This document shows, one piece after another, positions 11,568 to 29,985 of a stretch of DNA of 31,917 nt. Below the pieces are notes generated by a model. The model was not told where the DNA came from, searched no databases, and worked only from the letters and a program-made list of their open reading frames with translations. The stretch is from a virus, in IMG/VR virus record IMGVR_UViG_3300031951_009668, positions 1 through 31,917 of that record; one strand, given 5' to 3'. The translations under genes were made by a program, and so were the position numbers. The stretch's first letter is position 1. Each line of letters opens with the position of its first letter.

Positions 11568-11568
11568 T

Positions 11569-13227
11569 ATGAAAAGAATATTAACCTTAGTAGCGGCAGT
11601 TTTAATAAGCTTTGCAGCAAAAGCTCAAATAATTGTCAACCAATCAGTTTCAGCAGGACCTTATAGAGTAGGGGATACAATCACTGTAACTTATACGGTA
11701 GATAAGGGAACAACTAAGCCACGTTATTTTTGGTTAAGATATGACTACAATAATAAGGCTTTAACTTATGTTTCCACAACCTTCTCACAGGGTAATCAAT
11801 CACAAACTTATTACACAAGTTGGAACAACTATAAGTTTACTGCAGCTGCAAACATCGCAGATACATCTTTATATGCACAATATGGCTCTACACCTTGGGG
11901 ATATGCTGTAAACAACGATTGGAATGTTGGACAGATTGCAGTTCAAAGAGTAGACCAAAGCGTAAATGGTGTAGTGGCAACTCAAAAGTATATTCTTAAA
12001 GACCAAAACACTTATGCTGGTATTTTTAAGTTAAACCTATCTTACGCAACTGATAGTGCTAGTGGAGCAAATATTCCATTCATTAGAACAACAGCTGGTC
12101 CAACAACAATAACTGGTGTAACTGGTAATACTTCTTATTTCAAAGTAAGAGTTCTATTCCCTTCTGGATATAACATTGGTGACCATAACGTTCAATTAAT
12201 GAGATTAAAAACCGATGGTACTGGTGATATAGATTGGTCACAACAACCTATTGCACAAAGAGCATTAGATGGTAGTGGTGAAGCAATATTTACATCAGGT
12301 ATCAGAGTTGGTGATAGTTTAGGCGTATTTGTAGCAAATGCATCATCTAAGACTTGGATGAATAATGTGGTGACTGTATCTGATGCATATAAATCATTCT
12401 TAGGTATTTCACAAACTGATTTAAGTGGTAACACTACTTACTTCACAAGACCAAACTTAGAAAAGAAAGTTGGTAATATTACTAAGAACGATGCCGTATT
12501 TACTGAAGCAGATGCATACTATTCATTTGCGCATGTAATGGGAGTTGATGTATCAGCAAACGCTTTCATTCCAACTTCTACCGCAACTTCTTGGAGATGG
12601 CATAGTGGTTTATTAAATCAAAGTTGGTTAGATGGTACTTCAAAATATAGAGTTTATGTGACACAACCTACACAAACTGTAGATGCTGTATTCGCATGGG
12701 GTGGTGACTTAGATTGGTCACATTCATCTCATCCTGATACAATCGCATCAAGAATAGCAGCTGGTATCTTTACTAATAAATCAAACGATTTAACAATTGG
12801 TGAAATTAAAACTATGGCTATGACATCTAATATGAGTAACTCTTATAATGAGTCTGTATTAGAAGAAGTTAAATTGGGTGTAGCATCTACAATACAAAAT
12901 GGTAAAGTAGTTCTTACCACAAACTTAACTAAAGAAGGTTTAGCAGGTTTGCAAGTTATTATGAACTACGATTCAACAAAATTAGATTTGGAAAATATCA
13001 TATTTGATTCTGGTTCAACTATCACAAACTTCTCAACAAAGGATAATGGTAGATTGACATTTGGTTCTATTGACCAACAAAAGACAGCTAGAATCAAAAC
13101 TGGTACTCCATATAAATTAATATTTAATCCAAAAGTTCCATTAAGCAACACTGCAGGTTTATTCTTCTTTGTGTTAGCCGATGCGGTAGATGCTAATGGA
13201 AAGAAAGTAGAACTTGTAATTGAATAA
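11569..13227 (+). CDS. Exported adhesin-like protein with dockerin-like and cohesin-like C-terminus
   Basis: The ATG at 11569 gives 552 residues beginning with a clear type I signal peptide (LVAAVLISFAAKA, cut before QIIVNQ). The N-terminal half is beta-rich, repetitive in Thr/Ser/Asn and resembles Ig-like surface domains. Around residue 300 lies NDAVFTEADAYYSFAHVMG, a degenerate EF-hand/dockerin half. The second half is WGGDLDWSHS. Residues about 430-552 form a cohesin-like beta sandwich (GLAGLQVIMNYDSTKLDL). The same order of dockerin-like halves and cohesin-like domain is found in the next gene, so the two share a homologous C-terminal half. It could be a host-surface protein or an appendage component. 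Confidence 0.6.
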   Translation: MKRILTLVAAVLISFAAKAQIIVNQSVSAGPYRVGDTITVTYTVDKGTTKPRYFWLRYDYNNKALTYVSTTFSQGNQSQTYYTSWNNYKFTAAANIADTSLYAQYGSTPWGYAVNNDWNVGQIAVQRVDQSVNGVVATQKYILKDQNTYAGIFKLNLSYATDSASGANIPFIRTTAGPTTITGVTGNTSYFKVRVLFPSGYNIGDHNVQLMRLKTDGTGDIDWSQQPIAQRALDGSGEAIFTSGIRVGDSLGVFVANASSKTWMNNVVTVSDAYKSFLGISQTDLSGNTTYFTRPNLEKKVGNITKNDAVFTEADAYYSFAHVMGVDVSANAFIPTSTATSWRWHSGLLNQSWLDGTSKYRVYVTQPTQTVDAVFAWGGDLDWSHSSHPDTIASRIAAGIFTNKSNDLTIGEIKTMAMTSNMSNSYNESVLEEVKLGVASTIQNGKVVLTTNLTKEGLAGLQVIMNYDSTKLDLENIIFDSGSTITNFSTKDNGRLTFGSIDQQKTARIKTGTPYKLIFNPKVPLSNTAGLFFFVLADAVDANGKKVELVIE

Positions 13228-15806
13228 TGAGAATATTATTAACACTATTATTATCTTTAATTGTATCTTTAGGGTTTGGTCAGCAGGTAAATGCACCAGA
13301 CCCTAAAGAGTTTACGGTAAACACATCTGCACAAAATGCAAGCGGTTTTAGTTTAAGTGGATTTAATTCTACTGATGTTTTACTATGTGCTATTGGTTTA
13401 CCTGTTGCTCCAACTGGAACTACGTTTTACATAACAACTACAACGGGTCTTACCGCATCCATTGGATATACTTTGACCGGTAATAAAACTCGTTTAACTT
13501 TTACGGGTACTCAAGCTAACATTAACAACGCATTAGCATCTCTAAAAGTAAACACAACAGGTACCGCAGGTAATGTTCAAATATCGGTATCTGCAACTGT
13601 AAACCCAACTGGATATTTTTATCTTCCAACAAATGGACACTTTTATAGACCAATATCAACCGGTGTGTTTTATTCACAATCTAAAATAAACGCAGCTGCA
13701 ACAACATTCAAAGGGCAAAGAGGGTATTTGGTAACTATAACTTCTTCAGATGAGGATTTATTTATTTTTAATAATGTACCACAATCTAACATATGGTTTG
13801 CATTAACGGATTCAATAACCGAAGGAACTTGGAGAATAGATGATGGACCTGAAAAAGGTACTATCGTAAGAATAGGTACAACAAATCAGCAAGGTGTTTA
13901 TAACAATTGGGCAGGTGGTGAACCAAATAACTGGGGTGGAAACGAAGATTATGCGGTAACTAAATGGGGTGGTTCTCAATGGAACGATTTGAATTCTAAC
14001 TATAATAATCCGTATGTAATTGAGTATGGAACATGGACAAATCCTGATGACCAAACTTTTACTGAATTCTACAATAATAGTGTTATTAATACAAATGGAC
14101 CTAACTTAAATTTGGTAGGTCAATTTAATTTTAACTTTGGTGGTAATATTGATGAAACTAAATTTTTAGGAACGATATTCAAAAGAAACAACTCCACATC
14201 GGCATGGACGGGAAATACATATAAAACATTAAATGGTTTAGGTAGAGTAACTCTTTCTGAACAATTAGATACTGCAAAACTATTTTCATCTGCAATATCA
14301 ATAGCAACCGCAAATGATATGACTGCATATAGTGAAACCGATATAGGTAAGATATACAAAATGACCATAACAGGTAATACAGGTGGTACAATTTGGGGAA
14401 CAAACATATACACAAACGATTCATATATTCCAAAAGCAGCTGTGCATGCTGGGGTAATAACTGCCGGACAAACAAAAGATGTTTACATTAAAATAGTTGA
14501 GGGATTAAATGATTATCCAGCATCAACACAAAATGGTGTAACATCAGATAGTTGGGGAGCATGGGGATTGAGTTATCAATTTGTAAACGAACCATCATCC
14601 TACAAAGCAACCATAACAACTGGACAAGCAGAATTTTCTTATGTTAATATTTCAAATGGTGTTACAACTCTTTATATTGATTTAACTAGATTTGGAAGTA
14701 CACAACCATCAACAATATCTAAAGTTAAAATATTGGATTGTTATGATGGGCCTGTAACATATCAACAAACATCTGCATATTGGGCACATTATGTTGTTCC
14801 ATCAACACTTACAAAAGTTACCGATGGAACTTCGGCATTTAATTCATCAATAAGAAATGCTGGAAATAATAATTGGGCTTTTATGTCTAATATTTCTTTT
14901 GCACAAAATGGTACTTACAAACAACATAAATTCCAATTTCAAAATTATGATTCAGTACAACTTAAAACACTTTACAATAGTATAGTTACTGTATCGGATG
15001 TTTATTTAGCATTTAAGGAATTGGCAGAAGCTGGTGGTATATTTGGTGGTGGTAGTGGAACGCAATTCACTTATGGTATGCAATTCAAAAATGCGGATAT
15101 TGATGATAATGGTGTATTCAATGAAGCGGATTGTTTTAGATTATTACAAAACTTAACAGGTGCTAAAAACTTAGTGGATAACTACACATTGGATAATACA
15201 ATGAAAATAGTTTTAGATTCAACTTATGCAACTATTGGTAAATCTAATTGGAAAGATTTTCCATCTTATTTAGGTAAAGAGTATGGATTCAGTTTATTGG
15301 ATGGTAAAATAAATTACACATACAATTTAGCAGTAACTTGGAAAGGTGATGTAAACTTATCACACTCAGCAACTCCACCTTCAAATGGTATAACAACAAT
15401 GTCAGCAAACTTTGGTGAAAGAAGTATGAGTGTAAATGGTGAACCAACTGCATATATTATCTCGCAAATAGTTGGAGATAGTTTAATTGCAACTATTAAA
15501 TTCAATCCAAATATAAATTCTATTGTTGGTACTCAATTCCAAATAAATTATGATAACTCTTTAATTACGTTATCTTCAACAAAATACAAAACAACAGGCT
15601 CACCTATAAACTTCGCAAATGATAGAGGAACATTTATTAATTTAGGTTCTCTTAATACTGGTGGTGAATTATTAGATGGTACTACCGAATATCAACTTAC
15701 GTTCAAATTAAAACAACAATTGGATAACTCTTTAGGTTTGGTTTCTATTGCTGGAAACGAAGCGGTAAATAAAGATGGTAAAACTATTAAAATAAGAATA
15801 CAATAA
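13227..15806 (+). CDS. Large exported C-type lectin protein with dockerin-like and cohesin-like domains
   Basis: The 859-residue product has a signal peptide (LLLSLIVSLGFGQ) and an Ig/cadherin-like beta domain at about residues 30-127. A C-type lectin-like domain follows at about 130-268. The lectin domain shows the calcium/sugar motifs EPN (232-234, GGEPNNWGGNEDY) and WND (252-254), and the spacing expected before them; EPN is the triplet usually linked to mannose-type sugars. A long beta-rich middle follows. A clear calcium loop D-I-D-D-N-G-x5-D with its helix (ADCFRLLQNLTG) comes next, then WKGDVNLSHS, then a cohesin-like sandwich at about 735-859. The gene overlaps both neighbours by TAATG junctions. 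Confidence 0.75.
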   Translation: MRILLTLLLSLIVSLGFGQQVNAPDPKEFTVNTSAQNASGFSLSGFNSTDVLLCAIGLPVAPTGTTFYITTTTGLTASIGYTLTGNKTRLTFTGTQANINNALASLKVNTTGTAGNVQISVSATVNPTGYFYLPTNGHFYRPISTGVFYSQSKINAAATTFKGQRGYLVTITSSDEDLFIFNNVPQSNIWFALTDSITEGTWRIDDGPEKGTIVRIGTTNQQGVYNNWAGGEPNNWGGNEDYAVTKWGGSQWNDLNSNYNNPYVIEYGTWTNPDDQTFTEFYNNSVINTNGPNLNLVGQFNFNFGGNIDETKFLGTIFKRNNSTSAWTGNTYKTLNGLGRVTLSEQLDTAKLFSSAISIATANDMTAYSETDIGKIYKMTITGNTGGTIWGTNIYTNDSYIPKAAVHAGVITAGQTKDVYIKIVEGLNDYPASTQNGVTSDSWGAWGLSYQFVNEPSSYKATITTGQAEFSYVNISNGVTTLYIDLTRFGSTQPSTISKVKILDCYDGPVTYQQTSAYWAHYVVPSTLTKVTDGTSAFNSSIRNAGNNNWAFMSNISFAQNGTYKQHKFQFQNYDSVQLKTLYNSIVTVSDVYLAFKELAEAGGIFGGGSGTQFTYGMQFKNADIDDNGVFNEADCFRLLQNLTGAKNLVDNYTLDNTMKIVLDSTYATIGKSNWKDFPSYLGKEYGFSLLDGKINYTYNLAVTWKGDVNLSHSATPPSNGITTMSANFGERSMSVNGEPTAYIISQIVGDSLIATIKFNPNINSIVGTQFQINYDNSLITLSSTKYKTTGSPINFANDRGTFINLGSLNTGGELLDGTTEYQLTFKLKQQLDNSLGLVSIAGNEAVNKDGKTIKIRIQ

Positions 15807-18295: not shown

Positions 18296-18910
18296 ATGGC
18301 AGGTATCGCAGACCAATTCGCAGGTCTTCCTATTGAAGATTTGATTGTTTCACCTATTGTTGGTATGGCAAAAGGTCAAGCAAAATTAAACGAAGTAACT
18401 TGGAAATATATTTCTGAAGTAGCATTCGTAACGGACGAGAAAACTAAAAAAACTAAAGCACGTGCTTTAGATGTTGAAATGAACAGAGTTGTAACCGATG
18501 GTGCAACAGGTGAACAAAAACTACAAAAAATTTATAGTAAAGTTCCTATGTTACCATTAGTACCACTTCCTTCATTAGCAATTACTTCAGCAGATATTGA
18601 ATTTGCTATGGAAGTAAAAACTTCAGAGACAGAAAAAAGTGATGTAAAAACTGAAAGCAGTGTTGAAGTATCAGCTGGTGGTAGATTTTGGGGTATGAGC
18701 TGGAATGCAAAAATTTCTGGTAAAGTAGCTACAAACAAAGAGAACACTAGAAGCACTGACAACTCAGCTAAATACAATGTAAAAGTACACGCTGAACAAT
18801 TACCAGCAACTGAAGGTATGTTGAAATTATCAGATTACCTAACTCAAATGTTAGAACCATCTTTAATTCCACTTACTGAAGACCCAGCAACTGGTGGTGG
18901 TAAGAAGTAA
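18296..18910 (+). CDS. DUF2589-type protein
   Basis: The 204-residue protein shows features I associate with DUF2589. It begins with a helical LIVSPIVGMAKGQAKLNEVTWKYI segment. The signature VPMLPLVPLPSLAI (about residues 83-96) is followed by ITSADIEFAMEV. A variable Ser/Lys-rich stretch comes next, and then a final strand KYNVKVHAEQLPATEGMLKL with a helix. The family is found in bacteria and some phages and has no established function known to me. The next gene encodes a shorter, related partner. Confidence 0.65.
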   Translation: MAGIADQFAGLPIEDLIVSPIVGMAKGQAKLNEVTWKYISEVAFVTDEKTKKTKARALDVEMNRVVTDGATGEQKLQKIYSKVPMLPLVPLPSLAITSADIEFAMEVKTSETEKSDVKTESSVEVSAGGRFWGMSWNAKISGKVATNKENTRSTDNSAKYNVKVHAEQLPATEGMLKLSDYLTQMLEPSLIPLTEDPATGGGKK

Positions 18911-18938: not shown

Positions 18939-19415
18939 ATGGCAAGATTAAATGTAGAGGAACTTGTTGGCGGTCTCTTAGAGGCCGCCATGGTTTCTCA
19001 AGGTATAAGTGAAAGACAGCATATTAATGCTATCCGAAACTATTTCAATGAAGATGGTACACCCAAAACCACTACCTTTAATATAGGTGGTAAGGATTTG
19101 GTTGTACCTCTTTATATTTTGGCGGACCATTCATCTATTGGATTGGATGAGCTAGATATTGAGTTTACTTGTAGACTTATATTTGGTGACGAAGAAAAAG
19201 AAGTATCCAGTCTTAAAAAATCTCTATTAGGTTTATTTAAGAAAAAAGGATACGAACACAATATCAAAGGTATTGAAGTTGATTCAGGTTACAATCCAAC
19301 TGAAGCTGGTATGGCTAAAATAAAGGTTAAGTTTAAGGCTGATGAAAAGCCCGAAGCTGTAAGTAGATTGATTGATGAATATATCAAAAATCTTGAAGAC
19401 CCAAATGTAAAGTAA
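18939..19415 (+). CDS. DUF2589-like partner protein
   Basis: The 158-residue protein has an N-terminal helical segment (VEELVGGLLEAAMVSQGISERQ). A VVPLYILADHSSIGLDELDIEFTCRLIF element follows, in the same order as the signature of the preceding protein (proline strand, then a xxDIEF strand). It ends with a beta strand and an amphipathic helix (EAVSRLIDEYIKNL). The shared order suggests a related fold and a hetero-oligomer with the upstream product. The leader TAAAGGTTATATT before the ATG resembles the one at 10374. A terminator follows. Confidence 0.55.
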   Translation: MARLNVEELVGGLLEAAMVSQGISERQHINAIRNYFNEDGTPKTTTFNIGGKDLVVPLYILADHSSIGLDELDIEFTCRLIFGDEEKEVSSLKKSLLGLFKKKGYEHNIKGIEVDSGYNPTEAGMAKIKVKFKADEKPEAVSRLIDEYIKNLEDPNVK

Positions 19416-19475: not shown

Positions 19476-20204
19476 ATGAAAAAATTATTCGTATTATTAA
19501 GTATATTGTTGATTACGAGTGGTGTGGGTGTCCTACATGCTCAAACAATAGGAAAAACTAAAACTGAAGATTTCAAAGCAGATTTTGAAAAGAAAAAAGA
19601 TATATCTGCATATTTGGATTATGAAGGTCCAAAGAAAAATATCCAAATCCTTAAATGTGGTATTGGTGAAGAAGTGTACGAAATGTACCCTGAATTAAAA
19701 GAAAAGAGAGTAGGATTGGGTGTTGCAAATATCGTATTAGAATATTTGGATAACCTTAATCGTTTTGAATTTACCGAAGATAAGACTGAAATTAAAAATA
19801 GAATGGTGCAACAATTCAAAGCATCAAACGCTGGTATTTCCGAAAACAAAATTGAAGGTAGAGGAAAGATTAAATTGGCACATTACTTTGTAGAGATTGA
19901 AGTATATGATTATTCAGTATCAGAAGATGAAACTATTAACTTAAAAGATGGTATCAAAGATAACTTAGTAACTCGTTTAGGTTTACAGGTTAGATTTACA
20001 AATGCTGAGAATGGTTCAATCATCGCAGCATCTGGTTTGGGTGAAGCTAAAACAAATAGAGAACTTACTTTACTTTCTGATGCAACTGTGGACCCAATTA
20101 AATTCAACCAATCTACAATTAGTATTTCAACTAAGAAAGCATTGGATATAGCTTGTGCAAACATTTTGGACAAGATGATTAAAAAGGGTGTATTTGAAAA
20201 ATAA
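19476..20204 (+). CDS. CsgG-like exported protein
   Basis: The 242-residue product has a type I signal peptide (LFVLLSILLITSGVGVLHA, cut before QTIG) and no lipobox. The mature domain contains RVGLGVANIVLEYLDNLNRFEFTED, which corresponds to the CsgG-family helix followed by the strand before the variable region. The end FNQSTISISTKKALDIACANILDKMI matches the family's C-terminal helix. CsgG is the outer-membrane export channel of curli; related proteins occur in cyanophage and other marine phage genomes. The length is slightly below E. coli CsgG, and the missing acylated Cys makes a classical pore uncertain. Its stop overlaps the start at 20204. Confidence 0.65.
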   Translation: MKKLFVLLSILLITSGVGVLHAQTIGKTKTEDFKADFEKKKDISAYLDYEGPKKNIQILKCGIGEEVYEMYPELKEKRVGLGVANIVLEYLDNLNRFEFTEDKTEIKNRMVQQFKASNAGISENKIEGRGKIKLAHYFVEIEVYDYSVSEDETINLKDGIKDNLVTRLGLQVRFTNAENGSIIAASGLGEAKTNRELTLLSDATVDPIKFNQSTISISTKKALDIACANILDKMIKKGVFEK

Positions 20205-20446
20205 TGATTAGCTTAAAAACTATATTATCAGAATCAACCAAAACCGAATATATTGTTTGGGGTATTCCTCCTGGTAAAAGAGATGAGGAAATTTTATACA
20301 CAAAAGCTAAATCAAGTGGTGAAGCTAAAAAAGTAATAGATATATTAACACAAAAGCATGGATGTAAAAAGTGTAGAGTTCAGGTCTTAAATTTATCGCA
20401 AGATACCGATTTCTCACAAGAATTTGGAAACACTGTAAAACGTTAA
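20204..20446 (+). CDS. Leader-bearing small protein 1
   Basis: The 80-residue protein begins MISLKTILSE, the shared leader, ending in the I-x-E type cleavage site. The rest (YIVWGIPPGKRDEEILYTKA, then a Cys pair in HGCKKCRVQVLNL) resembles a small phage protein of unknown function with a beta-alpha-beta feel. It overlaps the CsgG-like gene by TAATG. By analogy with T4 internal head proteins it may be packaged in the capsid and lose the first 10 residues. Confidence 0.6.
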   Translation: MISLKTILSESTKTEYIVWGIPPGKRDEEILYTKAKSSGEAKKVIDILTQKHGCKKCRVQVLNLSQDTDFSQEFGNTVKR

Positions 20447-20449
20447 GAT

Positions 20450-20572
20450 ATGGCAAAAGCAAAACCAAAACCAGTACCTATGAGAAGTAGGAGAAGCGGT
20501 TTGAAAAAAATGAAGTTAATTAAACAAAATTTAGAAGTATTAAAAAGATTAGAGAATGATAAAGTTAAGTAA
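20450..20572 (+). CDS. Small basic peptide, 40 aa
   Basis: The short frame from the ATG at 20450 encodes MAKAKPKPVPMRSRRSGLKK and a helical, basic second half. It starts 3 nt after the previous stop and overlaps the next start by 17 nt, so packing supports it. The composition (Lys/Arg/Pro-rich, no acidic residue in the first 30) suggests DNA or RNA binding. It has no leader of the shared type. Confidence 0.5.
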   Translation: MAKAKPKPVPMRSRRSGLKKMKLIKQNLEVLKRLENDKVK

Positions 20573-21047
20573 TATACTAAAAGAAAACTACTCTCATATC
20601 AGATATTTAGTATCTGACCTTAAGAATCTATACTATGAAGTTAATGATAAAAAGTTAAAACAAATAATATTGGATTTAATTCCTTCAGGAACACAATACA
20701 CATATACTCCACAAAAATCAGATTTTTATATTAAAAAATTTAATGAGTTAGAAACATTAAGTAAAAAAGTATTAAAACCAAACAACCCAGCTCTTAAAAC
20801 AATACAAAAAGTAGTTAAGGGTGGTATGGATTTTTGGAATCAGAAAGAGAATATCAAAGAAATAGAAGTAGGACAGGGACACGAAAACGATAGAGATATG
20901 GTTGTGGGTGTTGCTGAAATTATTCGTATGGTAGATGATATGAACAATAGAAAGGAAATAGCAGATGCTATGTTAAGAAAGTTCAAATCAGAAGATGTAA
21001 TACACAATGCAAAGGAGTTCCTAACATTATGTGGAATTTCTTCATAA
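20556..21047 (+). CDS. Leader-bearing protein 2
   Basis: The 163-residue product begins MIKLSNILKE (shared leader, I-L-K-E). The remainder is helical and highly charged: LVSDLKNLYYEV, a serine/threonine loop, GGMDFWNQKENIKEIEVG, then GVAEIIRMVDDM. No enzyme motif was recognised. It is separated from the TonB receptor gene by about 70 nt that hold the long hairpin at 21074-21136. Confidence 0.55.
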   Translation: MIKLSNILKENYSHIRYLVSDLKNLYYEVNDKKLKQIILDLIPSGTQYTYTPQKSDFYIKKFNELETLSKKVLKPNNPALKTIQKVVKGGMDFWNQKENIKEIEVGQGHENDRDMVVGVAEIIRMVDDMNNRKEIADAMLRKFKSEDVIHNAKEFLTLCGISS

Positions 21048-21073
21048 TTTCTTAATATTAAAATAACCAATTT

Positions 21074-21136
21074 AGAGAAACGCTTTCATAGTTATTGGGG
21101 AACTAACCTAAAATAACTTTATGAGAGCGTTTCTTT
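21074..21136 (+). promoter_or_regulatory. Long hairpin sequestering the TonB-receptor start codon
   Basis: The arm 21076-21090 pairs with 21120-21134 (15 bp with one G-U). After a 2-nt bulge, GTTATT (21091-21096) pairs with AATAAC (21112-21117), around a 15-nt loop. The ATG at 21121-21123 is inside the 3' arm. T-rich sequence follows, so it could also terminate or attenuate transcription. Confidence 0.65.
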
Positions 21137-23373
21137 TATTTCTGTTACTACCTTTATCAACATTTTCGCAAGATACATTATTTAACAAAGTCCTTTCAGA
21201 AGTGACTGTAAAATCTGCCGGTCAAAGGATAACCGAAGCATCCATTGTAAGAAGTATTCGTAATTCAAATGTAGTATCCGATGGATTATCAGTTGAGTTT
21301 ATTAAAAAAACACCCGATAGAACCGTTGGTGATGCACTTAAAAGAGTAAGCGGTGTTACTATTCAAAACGATAAGTTTGTATTGGTAAGAGGATTAGCAG
21401 ACCGTTACAATTCTGCTATGTTAAATAAAACTCTACTGCCATCAACCGAACCAGATAGGAGAGCATTTTCATTTGATATAATTCCTACATCCCTAATTGA
21501 TAATATAATCATAGCTAAATCAGCTTCAGCAAATCTACCTGGTGATTGGAGTGGTGGATTGGTGCAAGTTTCTACAAAAGAAGTTTCCAACAATTTTTTC
21601 AATATCTCATTGGGAAGTGGTTGGGGTTCGGTTTCATCTCTTAAAGATTTTAAGTTAGTTCAAGCTACTGAATTTCCTTCCACATTCCCATCCACTTATC
21701 GTTTCCGAATAAGCCCAAACATTGAAAGGAGAGCATTTACAAAGTTAATAGGTTCACCAACAACCGAAGGGTTTACATCTCCACTTAATACAAATGGAGC
21801 ACTTTCATTTGGATATAAGAAGGGTAAGTTTAATGCTTTACTTAGTTCTACAATACGAAACTCATTCAATCTAAACTATATTGAAAGAACTGATTATCAA
21901 TCTTCAACTGAATTGGCATACGATTACAAAGATACACTTTACTCAAAAAGATTTCAAGCAAATGGATTACTTAACTTAACTTATTTGGGTGAAAACCGAT
22001 ATAGTTGGAAAACATTAGTAAGTTATCAAACTGATGACTCGTATATGAATAGAGTTGGTGAGAACTATGATAATGTTCAGAATGTATTAAGTAATTCTTC
22101 TAATCATATCCGCAACTTTGTTCTTAATTCACAATTAGACGGTAAGATTAAGACATGGGATTTTAATGTAGGATATAATTTTATTTTTAGAGAACAACCT
22201 GATTATAGAGTTAATCCAATTACAAAATCATTGGGTGTAAACGAACCATATGCAACCGCATGGAGAGACACATATCGTTTCTGGTCAATTATGGATGAGA
22301 ACGGAATGAATGGTAACATTAACAAAGATTTTGGTAAGATAAAAGTTGGTGGTGGTTATCTAAAAAAGATTAGAGGATTTAACGCAAGAGTTTTTAGATA
22401 TACCGCAGTTGATATGTTGGATGAAATAACAAACAACACCGATAGATACACCGCAGATTTTGATTTAGGTAATGGTTATGTAATGTATGATGGTGAGTGG
22501 GGTAAATGGAAATTGAATAGTGGATTGAGAACTGAATATAATATCTTTAGAGTTAATACATCTGATTTTAGCGGAATACAAATAAATGTAGATAGAGAGT
22601 ATTTGGATTTGTTACCTTCATTAAATCTTTCATACAACGAAGAAAAAAGTAAGTATAGATTTTCAATGAGTAAAACATTAGCAAGACCTGAATTTAGAGA
22701 AGTGGCTAATTTTGCTTATTATGATTTTGTAAGAAACGCACAATTATTGGGTAATTCAAATCTTAAAAAATCTGACATCTATAATGTAGACCTTAAATGG
22801 GAATACTATCCATCAAATAAAGAAAGTATATTCATTTCTGCGTTTGGTAAAAACTTTGTAAATCCAATTGAACAAATAGTAGCGGATGGTTCAGTTCCTT
22901 CCAATCTTCTTTTAACTTACACAAATCCAAAACAAGCAACAATATATGGTGTAGAATTGGAAATCAGAAAAAAGATAAATGGTTGGTTTGATTTTTATAC
23001 AAACACTTCGGTAATGAATTCGCAAGTAAATGCAAATGGAATTAGAAGACAATTGCAAGGACAATCAAACTATGTTATTAATTCTGGTATAAACATACAT
23101 AAGAAAAATGAAACATTAAATATTTCATATAATAGAGTTGGAGATAGAATATCAGCAGTTGGTTTCCAAGGTTACTCTGATATTTTTGAAAACGCTAGAG
23201 ATGTAATAGATATTGTGTTTCTACATAAATTAAAAAAAGGAGAACTTAAATTTGCGGTAGCAGATATACTTGCACAACCATCGGTTTATTATCAAAAGTT
23301 ACAAACAAAACGAAATTTGATAAAAACAAACAACGAACAAACAATTTCATTAACATTAAATTTAACACTATGA
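21121..23373 (+). CDS. TonB-dependent outer-membrane receptor
   Basis: The 750-residue protein has a signal peptide (FLLFLLLPLSTFS before QDT) and a TonB-box-like EVTVKSAG. A plug domain covers about residues 25-150 (TVGDALKRVSGVTIQND, FVLVRGLADRYNSAML, LIDNIIIAKSASANLPGDW, GGLVQVSTK). A 22-strand-type barrel rich in alternating aromatic residues follows, ending NEQTISLTLNLTL. Unlike many Bacteroidota receptors it lacks the N-terminal carboxypeptidase-regulatory-like domain. Such receptors import siderophores, B12, glycans or other ligands across the outer membrane using TonB/ExbBD. The substrate is unknown. It overlaps the following lipoprotein gene (ATGA). Finding one in a phage is unusual. 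Confidence 0.88.
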   Translation: MRAFLLFLLLPLSTFSQDTLFNKVLSEVTVKSAGQRITEASIVRSIRNSNVVSDGLSVEFIKKTPDRTVGDALKRVSGVTIQNDKFVLVRGLADRYNSAMLNKTLLPSTEPDRRAFSFDIIPTSLIDNIIIAKSASANLPGDWSGGLVQVSTKEVSNNFFNISLGSGWGSVSSLKDFKLVQATEFPSTFPSTYRFRISPNIERRAFTKLIGSPTTEGFTSPLNTNGALSFGYKKGKFNALLSSTIRNSFNLNYIERTDYQSSTELAYDYKDTLYSKRFQANGLLNLTYLGENRYSWKTLVSYQTDDSYMNRVGENYDNVQNVLSNSSNHIRNFVLNSQLDGKIKTWDFNVGYNFIFREQPDYRVNPITKSLGVNEPYATAWRDTYRFWSIMDENGMNGNINKDFGKIKVGGGYLKKIRGFNARVFRYTAVDMLDEITNNTDRYTADFDLGNGYVMYDGEWGKWKLNSGLRTEYNIFRVNTSDFSGIQINVDREYLDLLPSLNLSYNEEKSKYRFSMSKTLARPEFREVANFAYYDFVRNAQLLGNSNLKKSDIYNVDLKWEYYPSNKESIFISAFGKNFVNPIEQIVADGSVPSNLLLTYTNPKQATIYGVELEIRKKINGWFDFYTNTSVMNSQVNANGIRRQLQGQSNYVINSGINIHKKNETLNISYNRVGDRISAVGFQGYSDIFENARDVIDIVFLHKLKKGELKFAVADILAQPSVYYQKLQTKRNLIKTNNEQTISLTLNLTL

Positions 23374-24566
23374 GAAAATTATTAGGACTTATTTTAATCT
23401 TAGGATTATTCAGTTGCGAAAAAAATTTAGGTGGATATGAACCGCCTGTAAATGTTCCCCTTTCAACAACATTAAGTGGAACATACAAAGAAACTATCAC
23501 ACTAACCGCAGATAAAGTGTGGATATTAAAAGGATATGTTTATATCACAAATGGTTCACAATTAAGAATTCAACCGGGTACAAAGATTGTATCTGATGTT
23601 GCTGAAAAGGGTGCATTGTGTATCGAAAGAGGTGCACAAATAATTGCGGAAGGAACTGCACAAAAGCCAATCGTATTTACATCAGGAAAACCAGATGGTG
23701 AGAAAGCACCTGGTGATTGGGGTGGTATTGTAATATTGGGTATAGCTCCAACTAATAGAACATCAGAACCAACTATTGAAGGTGGTATTGGTAGACCTTA
23801 TGGTGGTACACTACCTGCTGATAATAGTGGTGTTCTAAAATATGTAAGAATTGAATACGCTGGAATCGCAGCAATGCCAAACTCCGAAATTAACGCACTA
23901 ACATTGGGTGGTGTTGGTAGTGGAACAATCATTGAGAATGTTCAAACTATTTACGCTAACGATGATGCATTTGAATTTTTTGGTGGAACTGTAAATGCTA
24001 AAAACTTATATGCATTCGCAACCGCAGATGATGATTTTGACTTTGATTTTGGATATACTGGAACTATTACAAATGGTGTGGCAAAGAGAGACCCACAATT
24101 TGTAGATAACGGAGATGCTGGAAATGGTATTGAGTGTGATAACGATGGAACAGGTTCAACCGCAACTCCATATACACATCCAAAACTATTCAATATGATT
24201 TTAGTTGGACCTAATACCTCAACTGCATTAGCAAACCATAACTTAGGTTTAAGATTTAGGAGAGGGACTCAATTCACAATGAAGAATAGTGTAATTTGGG
24301 GATGGATGAAAGGTGGATTGAGTTTAGAAAGTAATGAAACAGCACAATTCGTAAAAGATGGTGTTTCTGTATTTGAAAACAATTCAGTAGGAACATTTAA
24401 TCCTACCCTAAACTTTATCAGTAGAGCAACCACAATTTTAACAAATGAACAACTTAAAACTTTAGCATTAGGTAAAGGTAATAAGGAAATAGATGTGGTA
24501 ATACCTGAATTAGATAAACCAATATGGGTTAATGGATGGACTAGATTTCCAACAAAAGGTAATTAA
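23370..24566 (+). CDS. Parallel beta-helix surface lipoprotein, receptor partner
   Basis: The 398-residue product has an SPII signal ending LFSC, then EKNLGGYEPP. The repeated short strands (LRIQPGTKIV, AQIIAEGTAQKPIVFTSG, DWGGIVILGIAPTNR, GVLKYVRIEYAGIA, DDAFEFFGGTVNAKNLYAF, ADDDFDFDFGYTG) are those of a right-handed beta-helix family common in Bacteroidota. Members are often misannotated as 'multidrug transporter' and are frequently encoded next to TonB-dependent receptors. The Asp-rich DDDFDFDF segment may bind metal. The ATGA overlap with the receptor indicates coupled translation and suggests a two-part uptake or binding unit like SusCD. Confidence 0.8.
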   Translation: MRKLLGLILILGLFSCEKNLGGYEPPVNVPLSTTLSGTYKETITLTADKVWILKGYVYITNGSQLRIQPGTKIVSDVAEKGALCIERGAQIIAEGTAQKPIVFTSGKPDGEKAPGDWGGIVILGIAPTNRTSEPTIEGGIGRPYGGTLPADNSGVLKYVRIEYAGIAAMPNSEINALTLGGVGSGTIIENVQTIYANDDAFEFFGGTVNAKNLYAFATADDDFDFDFGYTGTITNGVAKRDPQFVDNGDAGNGIECDNDGTGSTATPYTHPKLFNMILVGPNTSTALANHNLGLRFRRGTQFTMKNSVIWGWMKGGLSLESNETAQFVKDGVSVFENNSVGTFNPTLNFISRATTILTNEQLKTLALGKGNKEIDVVIPELDKPIWVNGWTRFPTKGN

Positions 24567-24570
24567 AACG

Positions 24571-24597
24571 AAAGGGAGTACTAAACTCCCTTTTTTT
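24571..24597 (+). terminator. Rho-independent terminator after the receptor pair
   Basis: AAAGGGAGT (24571-24579) pairs with ACTCCCTTT (24585-24593) around ACTAA, then T7. ATATTTATA follows directly. Confidence 0.9.
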
Positions 24598-24606
24598 ATA
24601 TTTATA
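24598..24606 (+). promoter_or_regulatory. Candidate late-promoter element ATATTTATA
   Basis: The exact motif lies 19 nt before the ATG at 24626. Between them is a strong Shine-Dalgarno AAGGAGG, unusual for Bacteroidota genes. Confidence 0.6.
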
Positions 24607-24625
24607 GGTACAAAAAGGAGGACCT

Positions 24626-25447
24626 ATGAAAAAACTATTATTCTTAATAATGTTACTACCATTAGTTGCATTATCTCAAGTCTCCTCTTGGAGAACTAAT
24701 CCACCACAACCTAGAGTATCAACTCCATCTGTTCAAGGACAGAGAAGTGATATGAGTATGTGGAGAAACCAATCACCTAGAGAGTTTAATAGACCACAAA
24801 CAAAGCCTGGCTCAAACATCATCATCAACAACAATCCTTGGGGTTGGAACAATTGGGGATGGGGTTGGAATAGATGGGATATGTGGGGAGCACCTGGTTT
24901 CGGTTGGAACTTCTATACTCCTATGTGGTATTGGAATGATTGGGGATACCGTCAACCTGCAAGAGTATATGTTTACAATGATGGTAGGAAAGATACTATA
25001 AGAGGTAAAAAACCTATCATAAATTTTGGTTTACACAAAACAACAAACGAACAAATCGGTGGTTATTTCGCAGTTGGTAACAAAGGATATTTCATAATGG
25101 ATTTTGTTTCAACTTATGCAACTGACCGTTCTACTTTCTTTCCTTATGGTACAATTGGTAGAGTAGATTTCCCACTAATTTCAGACCTTAAAAAAGAAAG
25201 AACGTTTTATGTTGGTGGTGGTATCCGATACAAAAGAACCGGCTTCCATACAATGATAGGTGCTGGTAGAGAGATAGTAAGATGGAGAGGTAAAGATGCT
25301 TTGGGTGAAATAACTTTCCCTAAGTACAATTCAAATTTTGTTACAGCGAAGGTCGGTGTTATGTATGACATTAAAAACTTTACAATCAAGTTTGACACTG
25401 ACCCTATTAGAGATTATGTCCAATTTGGTTTAGGACTTAATTTCTAA
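24626..25447 (+). CDS. Exported Trp/Asn-rich protein with beta-barrel-like end
   Basis: The 273-residue product has a signal peptide (LLFLIMLLPLVALS before QVSSW). A low-complexity segment at about residues 20-108 is rich in Pro, Asn and especially Trp/Gly (NNPWGWNNWGWGWNRWDMWG). From about residue 130 the pattern turns to amphipathic beta strands (INFGLHKTTNEQIGGYFAVG, FYVGGGIRYKRTGFHTMIGA) and ends QFGLGLNF with a terminal Phe, like a small outer-membrane barrel. It is preceded by AAGGAGG, the clearest ribosome binding site in the window. It forms a transcript with the next gene, which has a similar barrel-like end. Confidence 0.6.
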   Translation: MKKLLFLIMLLPLVALSQVSSWRTNPPQPRVSTPSVQGQRSDMSMWRNQSPREFNRPQTKPGSNIIINNNPWGWNNWGWGWNRWDMWGAPGFGWNFYTPMWYWNDWGYRQPARVYVYNDGRKDTIRGKKPIINFGLHKTTNEQIGGYFAVGNKGYFIMDFVSTYATDRSTFFPYGTIGRVDFPLISDLKKERTFYVGGGIRYKRTGFHTMIGAGREIVRWRGKDALGEITFPKYNSNFVTAKVGVMYDIKNFTIKFDTDPIRDYVQFGLGLNF

Positions 25448-25448
25448 A

Positions 25449-26864
25449 ATGGTAAAATATCTAAGTATTTTTTTATTGGTATTAAGTTGCCTGTTCACAC
25501 AAAATGTGAGCGGGCAAACTTATACCCAATCCTATGTGGACAAGTGTACTGGTGAATTAAAGCTAGTTACAACACAAATGGTGAATGGTAACTATGTGGT
25601 ATCATTCTATAATCAGGTCAGAACATTTACTGCAACTGAAGTAATGAGTGGTGTTACACAGGCTTGGTTGACAACCGTTTACGCACAATATTCTACAATG
25701 GGTTGTCCTACTAATCAGGTGGTGCAACAAACTGTAAACCAAACTGTAAATCAGGCAACATCCCAAGCAGCATCAGCAGCGGCATCGGCAGCAAGTTCAG
25801 CTGCATCATCTGCTGCTAGTTCAGCCGCTTCATCATCAGCAAGTTCAGCAGCAAGCAGTTCCGCATCAGCGGCAGCATCTTCATCGGCTAGTTCTACACC
25901 ACCACCTACATCTTCATCATCAGGAAGCACTACTTCTGGAAGTTCTAGCAGTAGTTCTGGTTCATCTTCATCCAGCTCAAGCAGCTCATCATCTTCATCT
26001 TCTGAAACTAAATCGGAGAGTAGTAGTTCATCATCTTCATCAGAACAAAAGAGTGAACAAAAATCTGAGCAGAAGCAGGAAGAGCAAAAGAGTGAAAGTA
26101 AATCGGAAGAAAAGAAAGAAGAATCTAAATCCGAAGAAAAAAAGGAAGAAAAGAAAGAGGAGAAAAAAGAGGAAAAGAAGGATGATAAAAAGAAAGGAAA
26201 GAATGCAGTAAATCCTATGTTAGTTTCAGCAGATTTAGCAGGAACTCAAGATATGGAAGGAAAATATGCAGCATTGGCAAGTGTTGGTATATCTAAATCA
26301 TCTCTTATGGGTGATAAATCTTATTCTGCTACCGCACTTATTTGGAGTACGTTAGACCAATACGCAGTTAGTGGTGGTATGACAAAGATGGATTTTGAAG
26401 AAGGTAAATTAAATGGTATTCATTCATATTCAGTAACCGCAGCGTATCTGAAAGGAACTTGGATGCAAATGTTAGGATATACCTATGTAAAACCACATCC
26501 TAAATGGGGAACTTATGGATACAATGTTGGTGTTATTGCATTACAAATTAAAAATCCAATGACTCAAAAATATAATTTGAATTTGTTGACATCATTTGTG
26601 GGATTTTGGACTAAACCTTACCAAATCAATCGTAAAACCACAATTTCACCACAAATATTCTATATGAATTCACCAATTAGTTACAATCCATCAACAAAGG
26701 GAACATTGGTGACAAGAATACCTGGTTTTGTTGTGGGAAGTGGATATGATTTCAGACTTAGTAAAAGATTCGCATTTTCAGCAGCTTATAGGGCTGTATT
26801 ATCTTTAGAACCTAAGTTTACTATTATGAACAACTTCCAAATTGGTTCTAAATTGGTTTTGTAA
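25449..26864 (+). CDS. Exported protein with Ser/Ala and Lys/Glu repeats and a beta-barrel-like domain
   Basis: The 471-residue product has a signal peptide (IFLLVLSCLFTQNVSG before QTYTQS) and a small N-terminal domain with two Cys (C33, C86). A 145-residue low-complexity segment follows: Ala/Ser repeats (105-150), poly-Ser (155-200), then Lys/Glu/Ser and Lys/Glu repeats (200-250). The C-terminal 220 residues are amphipathic beta strands with aromatic girdles (YSATALIWSTLDQYAVSGG, GTYGYNVGVIALQI, FVVGSGYDFRLSKRFAFSAA) ending in QIGSKLVL, suggesting an outer-membrane barrel. The Ser run mixes TCA, TCT, AGC and AGT codons. Confidence 0.6.
   Translation: MVKYLSIFLLVLSCLFTQNVSGQTYTQSYVDKCTGELKLVTTQMVNGNYVVSFYNQVRTFTATEVMSGVTQAWLTTVYAQYSTMGCPTNQVVQQTVNQTVNQATSQAASAAASAASSAASSAASSAASSSASSAASSSASAAASSSASSTPPPTSSSSGSTTSGSSSSSSGSSSSSSSSSSSSSSETKSESSSSSSSSEQKSEQKSEQKQEEQKSESKSEEKKEESKSEEKKEEKKEEKKEEKKDDKKKGKNAVNPMLVSADLAGTQDMEGKYAALASVGISKSSLMGDKSYSATALIWSTLDQYAVSGGMTKMDFEEGKLNGIHSYSVTAAYLKGTWMQMLGYTYVKPHPKWGTYGYNVGVIALQIKNPMTQKYNLNLLTSFVGFWTKPYQINRKTTISPQIFYMNSPISYNPSTKGTLVTRIPGFVVGSGYDFRLSKRFAFSAAYRAVLSLEPKFTIMNNFQIGSKLVL
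25761..26201 (+). repeat. Low-complexity coding repeat (Ser/Ala then Lys/Glu)
   Basis: This internal part of the preceding gene encodes Ala/Ser, poly-Ser and Lys/Glu repeats. At DNA level it is a mixed, imperfect triplet repeat, with purine-rich GAA/AAA/AAG runs from about 26041 onward. Confidence 0.8.
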
Positions 26865-26873
26865 ATATTTATA
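26865..26873 (+). promoter_or_regulatory. Candidate late-promoter element ATATTTATA
   Basis: The exact motif starts one base after the stop of the preceding gene and lies 17 nt before the ATG at 26891. No terminator precedes it. Confidence 0.55.
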
Positions 26874-26890
26874 CACAAAAATAATACCTT

Positions 26891-27547
26891 ATGAAAAAAT
26901 TTGTTAATTTCAAAAACATTGCCATTGCCGCATTGGTAATTTGGATTTTATTACAATGGTTTAACCCAGGTGGAGTTATGCCAGGCGGAAGAACTATCAG
27001 AATTGATGGTAAAAAATACGAAGTTATAAAACATACGATAGATACTGTTGAAGTAGAGAAAGTAAAAGTAGTTACTAAGAAAGGAAAAGATATTGTACAT
27101 GAAGTAATTGATGTAGATACTTTAGTACTTAAAGAAATGATAAATGTAGATAGTGCAGCAATCCTTAAAGATTACTTAGCAAAGATTGTTTACAAAGATA
27201 CCCTAACTTTAGATGGTGGATTGGGAACTATTGCATTAACGGATACTATCACAAAGAATAGAATATTAGGTAGAACTTGGGATGCTAAAGTAAAAGAAAG
27301 AATCATCAAAGAAGAACTTATTGTTAAAGAACCTGCAAAAGCACAACTTTATTATGGTTTGAATGCTGGGTTTAACAAAGAAGATTATGTATCTGCAGTT
27401 GGAGCTGGTTTAATCTTAAAAACTAAAAAAGATAAAATTTATCAATTTGGTTTAGGTGTAAACAATAGAACTACTGATGGAACTAATGGTTCATTCTCAC
27501 CTTATGTTGGATTTGGTACTTATTGGAAAATTAAAGTTAAAAAATAA
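26891..27547 (+). CDS. Membrane-anchored envelope protein
   Basis: The 218-residue product has an N-terminal transmembrane segment at about residues 8-25 (NIAIAALVIWILLQWF) without a cleavage site. A valine/lysine/aspartate-rich, probably elongated helical or beta stalk follows (VEVEKVKVVTKKGKDIV). The C-terminal domain contains barrel-like strands (YYGLNAGFNKEDYVSAVGAG, YQFGLGVNN, FSPYVGFGTYWKI). It could span the periplasm. It was not recognised as a named family. Its stop overlaps the first of the leader-bearing genes (TAATG). Confidence 0.5.
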   Translation: MKKFVNFKNIAIAALVIWILLQWFNPGGVMPGGRTIRIDGKKYEVIKHTIDTVEVEKVKVVTKKGKDIVHEVIDVDTLVLKEMINVDSAAILKDYLAKIVYKDTLTLDGGLGTIALTDTITKNRILGRTWDAKVKERIIKEELIVKEPAKAQLYYGLNAGFNKEDYVSAVGAGLILKTKKDKIYQFGLGVNNRTTDGTNGSFSPYVGFGTYWKIKVKK

Positions 27548-27819
27548 TGATAAAGCTAACACAAATTAACGAAGCATCGGAAGTGATGTATAAAGAATTG
27601 AAACCAGTTCATCAAAAGCAGGTTCAAGCATTTGAAAAAATCATAGGTGGAAAGCACTCTCAAATATTTGATGGTATTCACGGAATGATTGTTGATATAG
27701 AAGCAAGTGGTAACTTTGGTAGCGGATATAGATTTGATGCTAATACACTAAAAAAGTTATTAGCACTTAAAGTTCGTTGGATAGAAGCTGATGGTGATTT
27801 AGTAACAATAGCATTTTAA
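27547..27819 (+). CDS. Leader-bearing small protein 3
   Basis: The 90-residue protein begins MIKLTQINEA, a one-residue-shorter form of the shared leader that still ends I-N-E. The body (VQAFEKIIGGKHSQIFDGIH, then FGSGYRFDANTLKKLLALK) looks like a compact alpha/beta fold. It was not recognised. It starts the densest leader cluster; the next gene begins after 1 nt. Confidence 0.55.
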   Translation: MIKLTQINEASEVMYKELKPVHQKQVQAFEKIIGGKHSQIFDGIHGMIVDIEASGNFGSGYRFDANTLKKLLALKVRWIEADGDLVTIAF

Positions 27820-27820
27820 T

Positions 27821-28168
27821 ATGATAAAGTTAAAAGATTTAATAACAGAAGCAAAATCAGATTATCAAGTATATCATAAAACATACTCAGCAGCAATAGC
27901 TACAGCTAAAGCATATGCGGAGAAAAAAGGATATGAAGTTGATGATGAAGATTCTTTTAGAAAAATAGGAATGGGCCCTAGAAAACCATCTGCTGGTAAG
28001 ACAAATAGATTTTCAATTGAATTAACTAAAGATGGAAAACCACAAAAGAAAATGCTACATATTCAAGTTTATAATATGGGTACTTTCAAAAGAGATTCTG
28101 ATGGTTCTTTAGTTAGAAGTATGTATGGTGGGCAAAACGAATATGAACTAAACGCTTACATCAACTAA
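27821..28168 (+). CDS. Leader-bearing small protein 4
   Basis: The 115-residue protein begins MIKLKDLITE (L-I-T-E). The body contains YHKTYSAAIATAKAYAEKKG, GMGPRKPSAGKTNRFSIELT and a C-terminal strand YELNAYIN, a combination I recall from several T4-like marine phage hypothetical proteins. The basic GPRKPSAGKTNR segment could contact nucleic acid. The stop overlaps the next start (TAATG). Confidence 0.6.
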   Translation: MIKLKDLITEAKSDYQVYHKTYSAAIATAKAYAEKKGYEVDDEDSFRKIGMGPRKPSAGKTNRFSIELTKDGKPQKKMLHIQVYNMGTFKRDSDGSLVRSMYGGQNEYELNAYIN

Positions 28169-28482
28169 TGATATTACTTAAAGACATATTAGGAGAAGAC
28201 CTTCGTAAGTGGTTTGGTAAGGGCAAGACTGGTTCTACAACTGGTGGTGGTTGGGATAGATACAATGCACAAGGTAAGAAGGTTGGTAAGTGTGGTGATT
28301 CAAAAGCAGGAGACCCATACGCAGCTTGCCTATCAAAAGAAAAAGCAGCTAAGTTAGGACCTGATGGTAGAGCGGCATTTGTAAAAAGAAAAAGAGCTGC
28401 ACAATCAAAAGCAGGAGATGCTAAGAAAGGCGGTGAAAAATCAAAAGGTCAAAAACCAACATTTGTTAAGACAGGTGCATAA
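28168..28482 (+). CDS. Leader-bearing small basic protein 5
   Basis: The 104-residue product begins MILLKDILGE (I-L-G-E), followed by DLRKWFGKGKTGSTTGGGWD. It is strongly basic, glycine-rich and carries two cysteines (GKCGD, AACLSKEKAAKLG) with a lysine-rich, probably unstructured tail. Similar small basic Gly/Cys proteins occur in large phages and giant viruses. Binding of the packaged genome is plausible and fits an internal head protein. The stop overlaps the next start. Confidence 0.6.
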   Translation: MILLKDILGEDLRKWFGKGKTGSTTGGGWDRYNAQGKKVGKCGDSKAGDPYAACLSKEKAAKLGPDGRAAFVKRKRAAQSKAGDAKKGGEKSKGQKPTFVKTGA

Positions 28483-29099
28483 TGATTTCACTAAAAAAGA
28501 TATTATCAGAGGTTGGAGAAGGTTCAGCAAAACCATTTTCATACAATAGAAAAGGTAATTTCAGTTCATTTTTCAAATCACTAAAAACGGCATCAACAAT
28601 TGACAAATATACAAAGCAAAAAGATTTTGTGTATGAAGTAATTGGTGATAAGTCTCGTTATTTGGTAAAATTTGCTTGTATTTTAAGAAAAAAGAACCCT
28701 ATGATTTTGGTATTACCTGGTCAAAAAAGAAAAGACCCACCAAAAGATAAATACGAAATGGAAGTTTCAATTGGATTTAATGTAAAGAGAGCAAGGGATG
28801 AATATGAAACCGGTTTTGGAGAAATGTATAGTTTAATGGCTACTGTAATTGAAACTATAAAAGATTTTGTGAAAGGTGTTGATGATGATATTAAGGTAAA
28901 TGGAATTCACATTTATCCAAAAGCAGATTTCAAAGGACTTGAAAGTGATGTTGATTCAAAAAGAGGTAGAATATATTTATCTTATATTAAGAAGAATATA
29001 GGAAAACTACCAGGCAAATGGTCAGCATTTCAATACAATGATAGAATTGAAGTAAGAAATGGTGATTGGACTGGTAATGATATAATAGCAAAAAGTTAA
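28482..29099 (+). CDS. Leader-bearing protein 6
   Basis: The 205-residue protein begins MISLKKILSE (I-L-S-E). The mature part reads as an alpha/beta domain with several basic patches (YLVKFACILRKKNPMILVLP, KVNGIHIYPKADFKGLE, RGRIYLSYIKKNIGKLPG). No family or active site was recognised. It is the largest soluble member of the leader group. It sits between two small basic members with a TAATG overlap upstream and 3 nt downstream. Confidence 0.55.
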   Translation: MISLKKILSEVGEGSAKPFSYNRKGNFSSFFKSLKTASTIDKYTKQKDFVYEVIGDKSRYLVKFACILRKKNPMILVLPGQKRKDPPKDKYEMEVSIGFNVKRARDEYETGFGEMYSLMATVIETIKDFVKGVDDDIKVNGIHIYPKADFKGLESDVDSKRGRIYLSYIKKNIGKLPGKWSAFQYNDRIEVRNGDWTGNDIIAKS

Positions 29100-29102
29100 A
29101 CT

Positions 29103-29405
29103 ATGATAAAGCTAACCGATATAATTAATGAAAAATGGAGCCAGAAGTATAAGCGCTCTATTGATTGTAACAACCCAAAAGGATTCTCACAAAAAGCACA
29201 TTGTCAGGGTAGAAAGAAAAACGAGTTGGTAGAAGAAGCTTTAGAATTATTTTTAGAAAAGAATTGTCCAACTGACCCAGAAAAGTGGTCAGCATCAAAA
29301 GCGGCAGCTAAAAGAAAGTTTGATGTATATCCATCAGCATATGCAAATGGATGGGCTGCAAAAAATTACAAATCAAAAGGTGGTGGTTGGAAGACCTGTA
29401 AATAA
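29103..29405 (+). CDS. Leader-bearing DUF5872-like protein 7
   Basis: The 100-residue protein begins MIKLTDIINE (I-I-N-E). A CNNPKGFSQKAHCQGRKK segment with two Cys follows. The end KRKFDVYPSAYANGWAAKNY is what I know as the DUF5872-type signature in phages and large DNA viruses. Function is unknown. The basic composition suggests nucleic-acid contact. The next leader-bearing gene starts 1 nt after its stop. Confidence 0.65.
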   Translation: MIKLTDIINEKWSQKYKRSIDCNNPKGFSQKAHCQGRKKNELVEEALELFLEKNCPTDPEKWSASKAAAKRKFDVYPSAYANGWAAKNYKSKGGGWKTCK

Positions 29406-29406
29406 T

Positions 29407-29985
29407 ATGATAAAGTTAAAATCATTAATAAAAGAAAGTTTTGTACAAGAAGCTGTAACATGGCTATTTGTAAATGTGGCTATATTTGTAATTAGTCAGG
29501 TCATAAGAGGTATCAGAAATAAATCCGAATATAAAAATTATACACAAGAACCACATATAAAATGGTTAGACAGAATTGGTAATAATACTAATTTTAATAA
29601 ATACGTTTACTTTACACTTAAAAATGATAAAAAAATAAAAGAGTTTGAGGCGGAATTTGAAAAATTAAAAGATACCAAACAATATATGAAACAAAAAAGT
29701 TTAGATTGGGATAAGTTTCAATATGAAAAATCATTAGTTAGTAAATGGTTAAGTTCTAAAATAGCACAAGAAGAATTAGAAAAAACATTCAAAGAAATAC
29801 ACCCTGATAAAAACGAAAATAGTAAAGATATTCCATTAAAAAACGGATTAACAATAAGCTATAAACAATGGAAAAATAATATAACTAGAGAAGCTGTTAA
29901 AGAATGGACTGGTGTGTTGAGTGATGGTACTACAAAAAAGTTTATAAATAAATTTGCACAACAACAAGGATTACCAACCATATGA
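29407..29985 (+). CDS. Leader-bearing membrane protein 8
   Basis: The start is placed at the ATG at 29407, giving MIKLKSLIKE (L-I-K-E) and 192 residues; an upstream in-frame ATG at 29320 would add 29 residues lying entirely inside the previous gene. After the leader comes a hydrophobic helix (VTWLFVNVAIFVISQVI) and then a long lysine/glutamate-rich helical domain. A leader followed by a membrane-inserting helix would fit an injected protein that acts at the host membrane. The last bases overlap the next start. Confidence 0.6.
   Translation: MIKLKSLIKESFVQEAVTWLFVNVAIFVISQVIRGIRNKSEYKNYTQEPHIKWLDRIGNNTNFNKYVYFTLKNDKKIKEFEAEFEKLKDTKQYMKQKSLDWDKFQYEKSLVSKWLSSKIAQEELEKTFKEIHPDKNENSKDIPLKNGLTISYKQWKNNITREAVKEWTGVLSDGTTKKFINKFAQQQGLPTI

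Follow-up and report, generated by a model that had tools for sequence, protein, structure and literature searches.

Why should eight phage proteins with unrelated bodies begin with nearly the same ten residues? The question is raised by the viral record IMGVR_UViG_3300031951_009668, a fragment of a T4-like phage whose whole stretch of 31,917 bases is called the window in the following, and in which eight genes start with the leader M-I-[KSL]-L-x-x-[IL]-[IL]-x-E. Judged from its sequence, this leader is very probably a capsid-targeting sequence (CTS) of the kind known from the T4 internal protein IPIII, with the cargo behind it processed by a gp21-type protease. It has long been poorly known which phage proteins accompany the DNA into the cell, since these proteins are small and evolve fast, and a tag readable from sequence would yield candidate first-wave effectors and anti-defence proteins even in phages that were never cultured.

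Results and Discussion

All open reading frames (ORFs) of at least 30 residues in the window were scanned for M-[IV]-x-[LFIV]-x-x-h-(h)-x-E, with h a hydrophobic residue. Exactly eight genes carry the leader, all on the plus strand and at the starts originally predicted (Table 1; genes are named by their first position), and no further ORF of that size fits the pattern anywhere in the window. As claimed beforehand, all eight leaders finish in [IL]-x-E. Seven of them match positions 4, 7, 8 and Glu10; the eighth, that of 27547, is indeed one residue shorter, a nine-residue form that is kept in its orthologues in the related records G031 (MIKLTQLNE) and G023 (MIKLNNLNE). Chance does not account for the shared leader. 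Of 20,000 trials in which the residues of the eight proteins were shuffled, 19,995 produced no match and the other five a single one each. Hydrophobic residues at 4, 7 and 8 followed by Glu10 stand at the start of 6 among 48 predicted window ORFs (27547, with its shorter leader, and an ORF with a misplaced start escape this count), compared to 39 other offsets that average 0.23 such cases and never exceed 2. Behind the leader the proteins diverge as fully as had been stated, with no mutual similarity detectable by phmmer (≤3.4 bits). The presence of basic members was borne out as well, since the isoelectric point (pI) exceeds 9 in six of the eight bodies versus 23% of the other window genes. 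Pfam and PHROGs returned little for the eight bodies; the proposed DUF5872-like member is 29103, but its match is weak (E 0.0011, which falls short of the Pfam cut-off). The same protein also matched phrog_27331.

For packaging in T4, the ten N-terminal residues of IPIII are enough, and suppressor mutagenesis assigned targeting mainly to residues 4 and 7 and processing to residues 8 and 10, with gp21 cleaving after L/I-X-E and Asp at position 10 leading to targeting without cutting (PMC9026906). The leader positions conserved in the window, namely 4, 7, 8 and 10, are the very positions defined by this mutagenesis, which supports the T4-type targeting function put forward in the original prediction. 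Searching T4 itself for the MK-form of the leader gave three starts, those of IPIII, IPII and gp61.1. The latter (L234, T4 18966-19130), annotated as hypothetical, begins with MKTFKEFIKE and is a possible further internal protein of T4. No leader gene was found in the non-T4 Bacteroidetes phages phi4:1, phi14:2 and crAss001, where the single match is a 10-codon stub.

For comparison we used 30 viral records picked by the leader itself, in which the pattern occurs in 30/30 records at 71 sites, and a reversed-pattern control gave 0 matches. The gp21-like protease that such a leader calls for was located in relatives, including G001 and the syntenic G031, and not in the window. Its family PF03420 is present in 16 of the 30 leader-bearing records, among them every record of at least 87 kb, and a leader gene follows within three genes of gp21 in 11 of the 16 gp21 loci. 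In G031, a Peptidase_S77 protein, the gp21 type of prohead protease, is encoded approximately 47 kb from the leader cluster. Gp23 was found in 15/30 records and not in the window; around residue 60, the major capsid proteins of relatives, including that of G001, show [LV]-x-E with A, T or S as the next residue, and T4 gp23 has a 65-residue propeptide that is removed (PMC9026906).

Evidence on virions comes from cyanophages. For S-CREM2, mass spectrometry found 52 of 219 proteins in purified virions (PMC10665884). Five of the six proteins with hydrophobic residues 4, 7 and 8 and Glu10 are among them, compared to 47/213 others (Fisher p = 0.003): a SAM hydrolase, an APH-like kinase, a cytidylyltransferase, ORF13 and ORF136. 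A looser leader pattern gave 6/15 detected proteins (p = 0.11), and therefore the spacing matters. The tag would offer a reason for the presence of cytidylyltransferase, SAM hydrolase and kinase in cyanophage virions. S-CREM2 gp12 (L151), a virion-detected Cas9-like protein, carries the leader-like FASFMAEA internally, some 18 residues from its start. The S-SCSM1 data tag an NMNAT starting with MKSFLQFLKE as a virion protein and leave gp030, starting with MKTFKQFMSE, untagged. They also tag gp029, a relative of the cyanophage T4-GC_119 proteins, and the bodies of 28168 and 29103 correspond to modules in T4-GC_119 proteins or their neighbours. In S-SM1, the sole MK-type match is a cytidylyltransferase; a cytidylyltransferase (T4-GC190), which may be the same gene, was detected in S-SM1 virions (PMC3037559).

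Presence in the head would also be expected if the leader sent structural or DNA-condensing components, instead of injected effectors, to the assembling head, and we consider this an unlikely but serious alternative. It is in line with the basic bodies, with the frequent position of a leader protein inside the gp21-gp22-gp23 cluster and with the DUF6321 and SIDC-type modules of a virion-tagged cyanophage protein. Other cargo, however, is enzyme- or toxin-like: ART-PolyVal, zeta toxin and cytidylyltransferase domains could be named in relatives, and the SAM hydrolase and kinase of S-CREM2 bear leaders of matching spacing. Furthermore, the cassette turns over fast, unlike core structural genes. 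G031 is syntenic with the window over 21.1-31.9 kb, the shared genes being 45-97% identical (most >70%), and when G031, G023 and the window are compared, leader genes disappear, appear, fuse or change place beside conserved flanking genes. By this comparison of sequences, the cassette at 27.5-30 kb is a fast-changing one inside an otherwise conserved neighbourhood. That the tagged bodies act as injected effectors is suggested by the types of cargo domain and by analogy, and belongs to the weaker points of the original prediction.

That the leader sorts proteins elsewhere, such as to a phage-made compartment or the membrane, is very improbable. A hydrophobic stretch in 29407 and the signal-peptide-like starts of several window neighbours would suit it, but proteins with the leader spacing were found in S-CREM2 virions, and the conserved positions and the cut site are those of the T4 CTS and the gp21 motif. 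The original prediction also listed a membrane-active member, a weaker point for which this stretch of 29407 is the sole hint.

A DNA-pattern scan for the leader matched at least 120 viral stretches. Among the loci analysed, 190 distinct full-length leader proteins form 59 single-linkage body clusters; a small number of them are from cyanophages and a few others are probably ORFs that match by chance, so the expected recurrence of the leader on different bodies in related phages is found. The 27821-type body, for which there are 34 homologous loci, stands behind MIKLKDLITE, MISLKKILKE, MISLVRLITE, MISLKALLTE or a longer MK-type start, and it occurs within longer proteins too, with h-x-E before the body in all clear cases. 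Bodies inside longer proteins gave 59 distinct internal junctions, partly from related families, of which 40 place [ILVMF]-x-E precisely where the cut is predicted, compared to a random expectation of 1.4 on average and 7 at most (2000 draws); within a few residues of the junction the motif is present in 46/59, with 6.7 expected. As read from the sequences, this effect is far outside the random range despite the kinship of the families. Single cases illustrate it (a slash marks the junction): the 28168 body, with the junction E/DLRKWF, is a module of the cyanophage T4-GC_119 protein, the junction E/xWSxKYxxSIDC of 29103 is conserved among fused proteins, and the homologous body of 29407 in G031 sits fused after ...SEILKE/GILQDAL. 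Multi-module cargo proteins were seen, and several of the fused proteins carry a leader at their own start, which leads to a polyprotein model. In a fused protein of G023 (L224, 37638-38249), a leader-like MIRLSDIFVK that does not have Glu10 is accompanied by an internal EMNE/KWSAKY site.

Could the leader simply be the part that stayed conserved at the start of a single family of homologous domains, the bodies being members that diverged? The leaders are alike in length and pattern and several of the genes are adjacent, but we regard this as highly improbable: the bodies show no similarity to each other, spread over 59 clusters with different Pfam domains, and one body can stand behind various leaders or lack a leader of its own. 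The predicted model of 27821 likewise has a low-confidence leader (predicted local distance difference test, pLDDT, 49) ahead of a folded body (mostly 74-91). Alignments thus do not place the leader in one homologous domain, and the leader swaps argue against this.

Conservation of the leader at DNA level, also claimed before, is real but partial. All five M-I-K leaders use ATA AAG, versus 3/63 other Ile-Lys dicodons in the window; the other three differ (ATT AGC, ATA TTA, ATT TCA), and relatives often encode the same residues by ATT AAA, ATA AAA or other codons. Copying of leader DNA between genes would account for the shared ATA AAG codons, and the codon bias suggests that the leader may spread as a DNA module; in T4, the leader DNA of IPII and IPIII is identical. 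That the leader is nothing but a translation-start or mRNA feature of A-rich, stop-start overlapping genes is highly improbable. The ATA AAG bias and the TAATG overlap of several genes with their upstream neighbour fit it, but many relatives use other codons for the same residues, the hydrophobic residues 7 and 8 and Glu10 are located past the initiation region, and h-x-E is kept at junctions within longer genes, where there is no start codon. Body homology and an mRNA-only signal were both rejected on leader swaps, alternative codons and internal h-x-E junctions.

Several observations weigh against a T4-type CTS with gp21 processing. The 32-kb window, a fragment, is devoid of gp21, and for this Bacteroidetes lineage we found no virion proteome and no observed cleaved N-terminus. 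The cyanophage leader, MKxFxxFLxE, has its spacing in common with MIKLxxILxE and not its letters. Part of the S-CREM2 N-termini had been inspected before the strict pattern was tested, although its positions agree with the mutagenesis in T4, and the S-SCSM1 proteome alone has 1/3 pattern-bearing genes detected, which is not significant; one of these three, a recombinase, is probably a chance match. Finally, the leader served to select the viral records, and the 59 junctions, which include related families, are not 59 independent events.

In the mechanism that we propose, leader residues 4 and 7 would draw the tagged protein into the prohead core during head assembly, as inferred from T4. Cleavage by a gp21-type prohead protease behind [IL]-x-E (residues 8-10) would then remove the leader and leave the mature, mostly basic body with the packaged DNA. 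At infection, the bodies would pass into the host and act there as first-wave effectors or as companions of the DNA. For the window lineage, cleavage, packaging, injection and effector function are all inferred. Bodies may be tagged as separate genes or appended to a longer cargo protein after an internal h-x-E, and the same protease would free several products from one polyprotein at sites known from sequence, which suggests a second role for the capsid protease in processing effector polyproteins. We lean towards a general cargo grammar in T4-like Bacteroidetes phages and partly in cyanophages, in which a ten-residue tag or an internal h-x-E marks a packaged and released effector. If true, the tag would predict dozens of unknown families of injected effectors from sequence alone.

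Table 1. Leaders and predicted mature bodies of the eight genes in the window.
Feature	Positions	Strand	Gene and remarks
Leader MISLKTILSE	20204..20233	+	gene 20204-20446, 80 residues, basic body, pI 9.2
Leader MIKLSNILKE	20556..20585	+	gene 20556-21047, 163 residues
Leader MIKLTQINE	27547..27573	+	gene 27547-27819, 90 residues; short, nine-residue leader
Leader MIKLKDLITE	27821..27850	+	gene 27821-28168, 115 residues
Leader MILLKDILGE	28168..28197	+	gene 28168-28482, 104 residues, DUF6321-like, very basic, pI 10.2
Leader MISLKKILSE	28482..28511	+	gene 28482-29099, 205 residues
Leader MIKLTDIINE	29103..29132	+	gene 29103-29405, 100 residues, SIDCNNPKGFSQKAHC module and weak DUF5872
Leader MIKLKSLIKE	29407..29436	+	gene 29407-29985, 192 residues, hydrophobic segment early in body
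Predicted body of 20204	20234..20446	+	predicted cut after [IL]-x-E
Predicted body of 20556	20586..21047	+	predicted cut after [IL]-x-E
Predicted body of 27547	27574..27819	+	predicted cut after [IL]-x-E
Predicted body of 27821	27851..28168	+	predicted; leader swaps and internal junctions
Predicted body of 28168	28198..28482	+	predicted; junction E/DLRKWF
Predicted body of 28482	28512..29099	+	predicted cut after [IL]-x-E
Predicted body of 29103	29133..29405	+	predicted; conserved junction in fused proteins
Predicted body of 29407	29437..29985	+	predicted; internal junctions

Gene by gene, 20204 has an orthologue in G023 at 38252 with the leader MISLKSLLKE, and a fragment of the 20556 body aligns at 33% with a fused protein of the same record. 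Between these two genes lies a very basic 40-residue ORF without leader (20450-20572, MAKAKPKPVPMRSRRSG...). For the 27821 body model, no PDB or viral structure matched at E ≤0.001. Remote leader-bearing relatives of 28482 occur in L010, L064, L057 and phage immuto, and its predicted model is poor (mean pLDDT 55). Three leader proteins of phage Mel-JY01 (L142, 10276-12718) continue with ISDRVWHLTT or similar. By eye, some leader-bearing bodies of the YHFTS and WHLTT types, possibly including these three, resemble ADP-ribosyltransferases. Pfam gave no hit for them, with one of the Mel-JY01 proteins searched, and because of this we do not claim such an activity.

Among other phage genes, the window encodes PhoH and a C-type lectin/LCCL protein (13227-15806), the latter adjoining a cohesin-domain protein (11551-13227); in phage immuto, genes annotated as lectin C-type and cohesin lie near each other. 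Two DUF2589 proteins stand side by side (18296-18910 and 18939-19415). A phage-encoded outer membrane barrel resembling TonB-dependent receptors (21121-23373, Plug and OMP_b-brl_3) is conserved in G031 and G023.

Comparison with Known Systems

In the Dar system, an N-terminal signal of fewer than 30 residues likewise sends an anti-restriction protein into the head, but the Dar proteins have no consensus leader according to the paper on them. Polyvalent proteins of phages and plasmids (PMC5512222) are also multi-domain delivered effectors and have the ART-PolyVal domain in common with the cargo described here; a built-in peptidase was proposed to separate their domains, whereas sites of the window type fit the capsid protease. 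Head proteins of SPN3US and phiKZ-like giant phages (PMC5694885) lose propeptides with an inferred targeting role to the prohead protease, although several of these propeptides exceed 100 residues and the cut motifs are different. Closer are the virion-associated non-structural proteins of the Kyanoviridae, with the same leader spacing, shared DUF6321 and SIDC modules and a cytidylyltransferase cargo that bears the leader MNRLAQFLIE in G031. They differ in their letters, MKxFxxFLxE, and the available parts of the cyanophage papers do not mention the leader.

Closest are the T4 internal proteins IPI, IPII, IPIII and Alt, with a ten-residue N-terminal leader, hydrophobic residues 4, 7 and 8, Glu10 and the (L/I)-x-E cut motif. 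Diverse, mostly basic bodies are common to both, a gp21-type protease is present in the relatives of the window, and the cargo of these relatives includes an ADP-ribosyltransferase-type domain. Compared to T4 with its MKTYQEFIAE, the window lineage has MIKLxxILxE and far more families of cargo; several tagged genes cluster in cassettes, cargo polyproteins have internal cut sites, and the hosts are apparently Bacteroidetes. We file the system as a variant and not as a new kind, because T4 reviews already describe diverse internal proteins sharing only the CTS (PMC3012670). We take it for the T4 internal-protein system in enlarged form, apparently with effector polyproteins cut by the capsid protease, and what is new compared to T4 is the breadth of the cargo, the lineage and the polyproteins.

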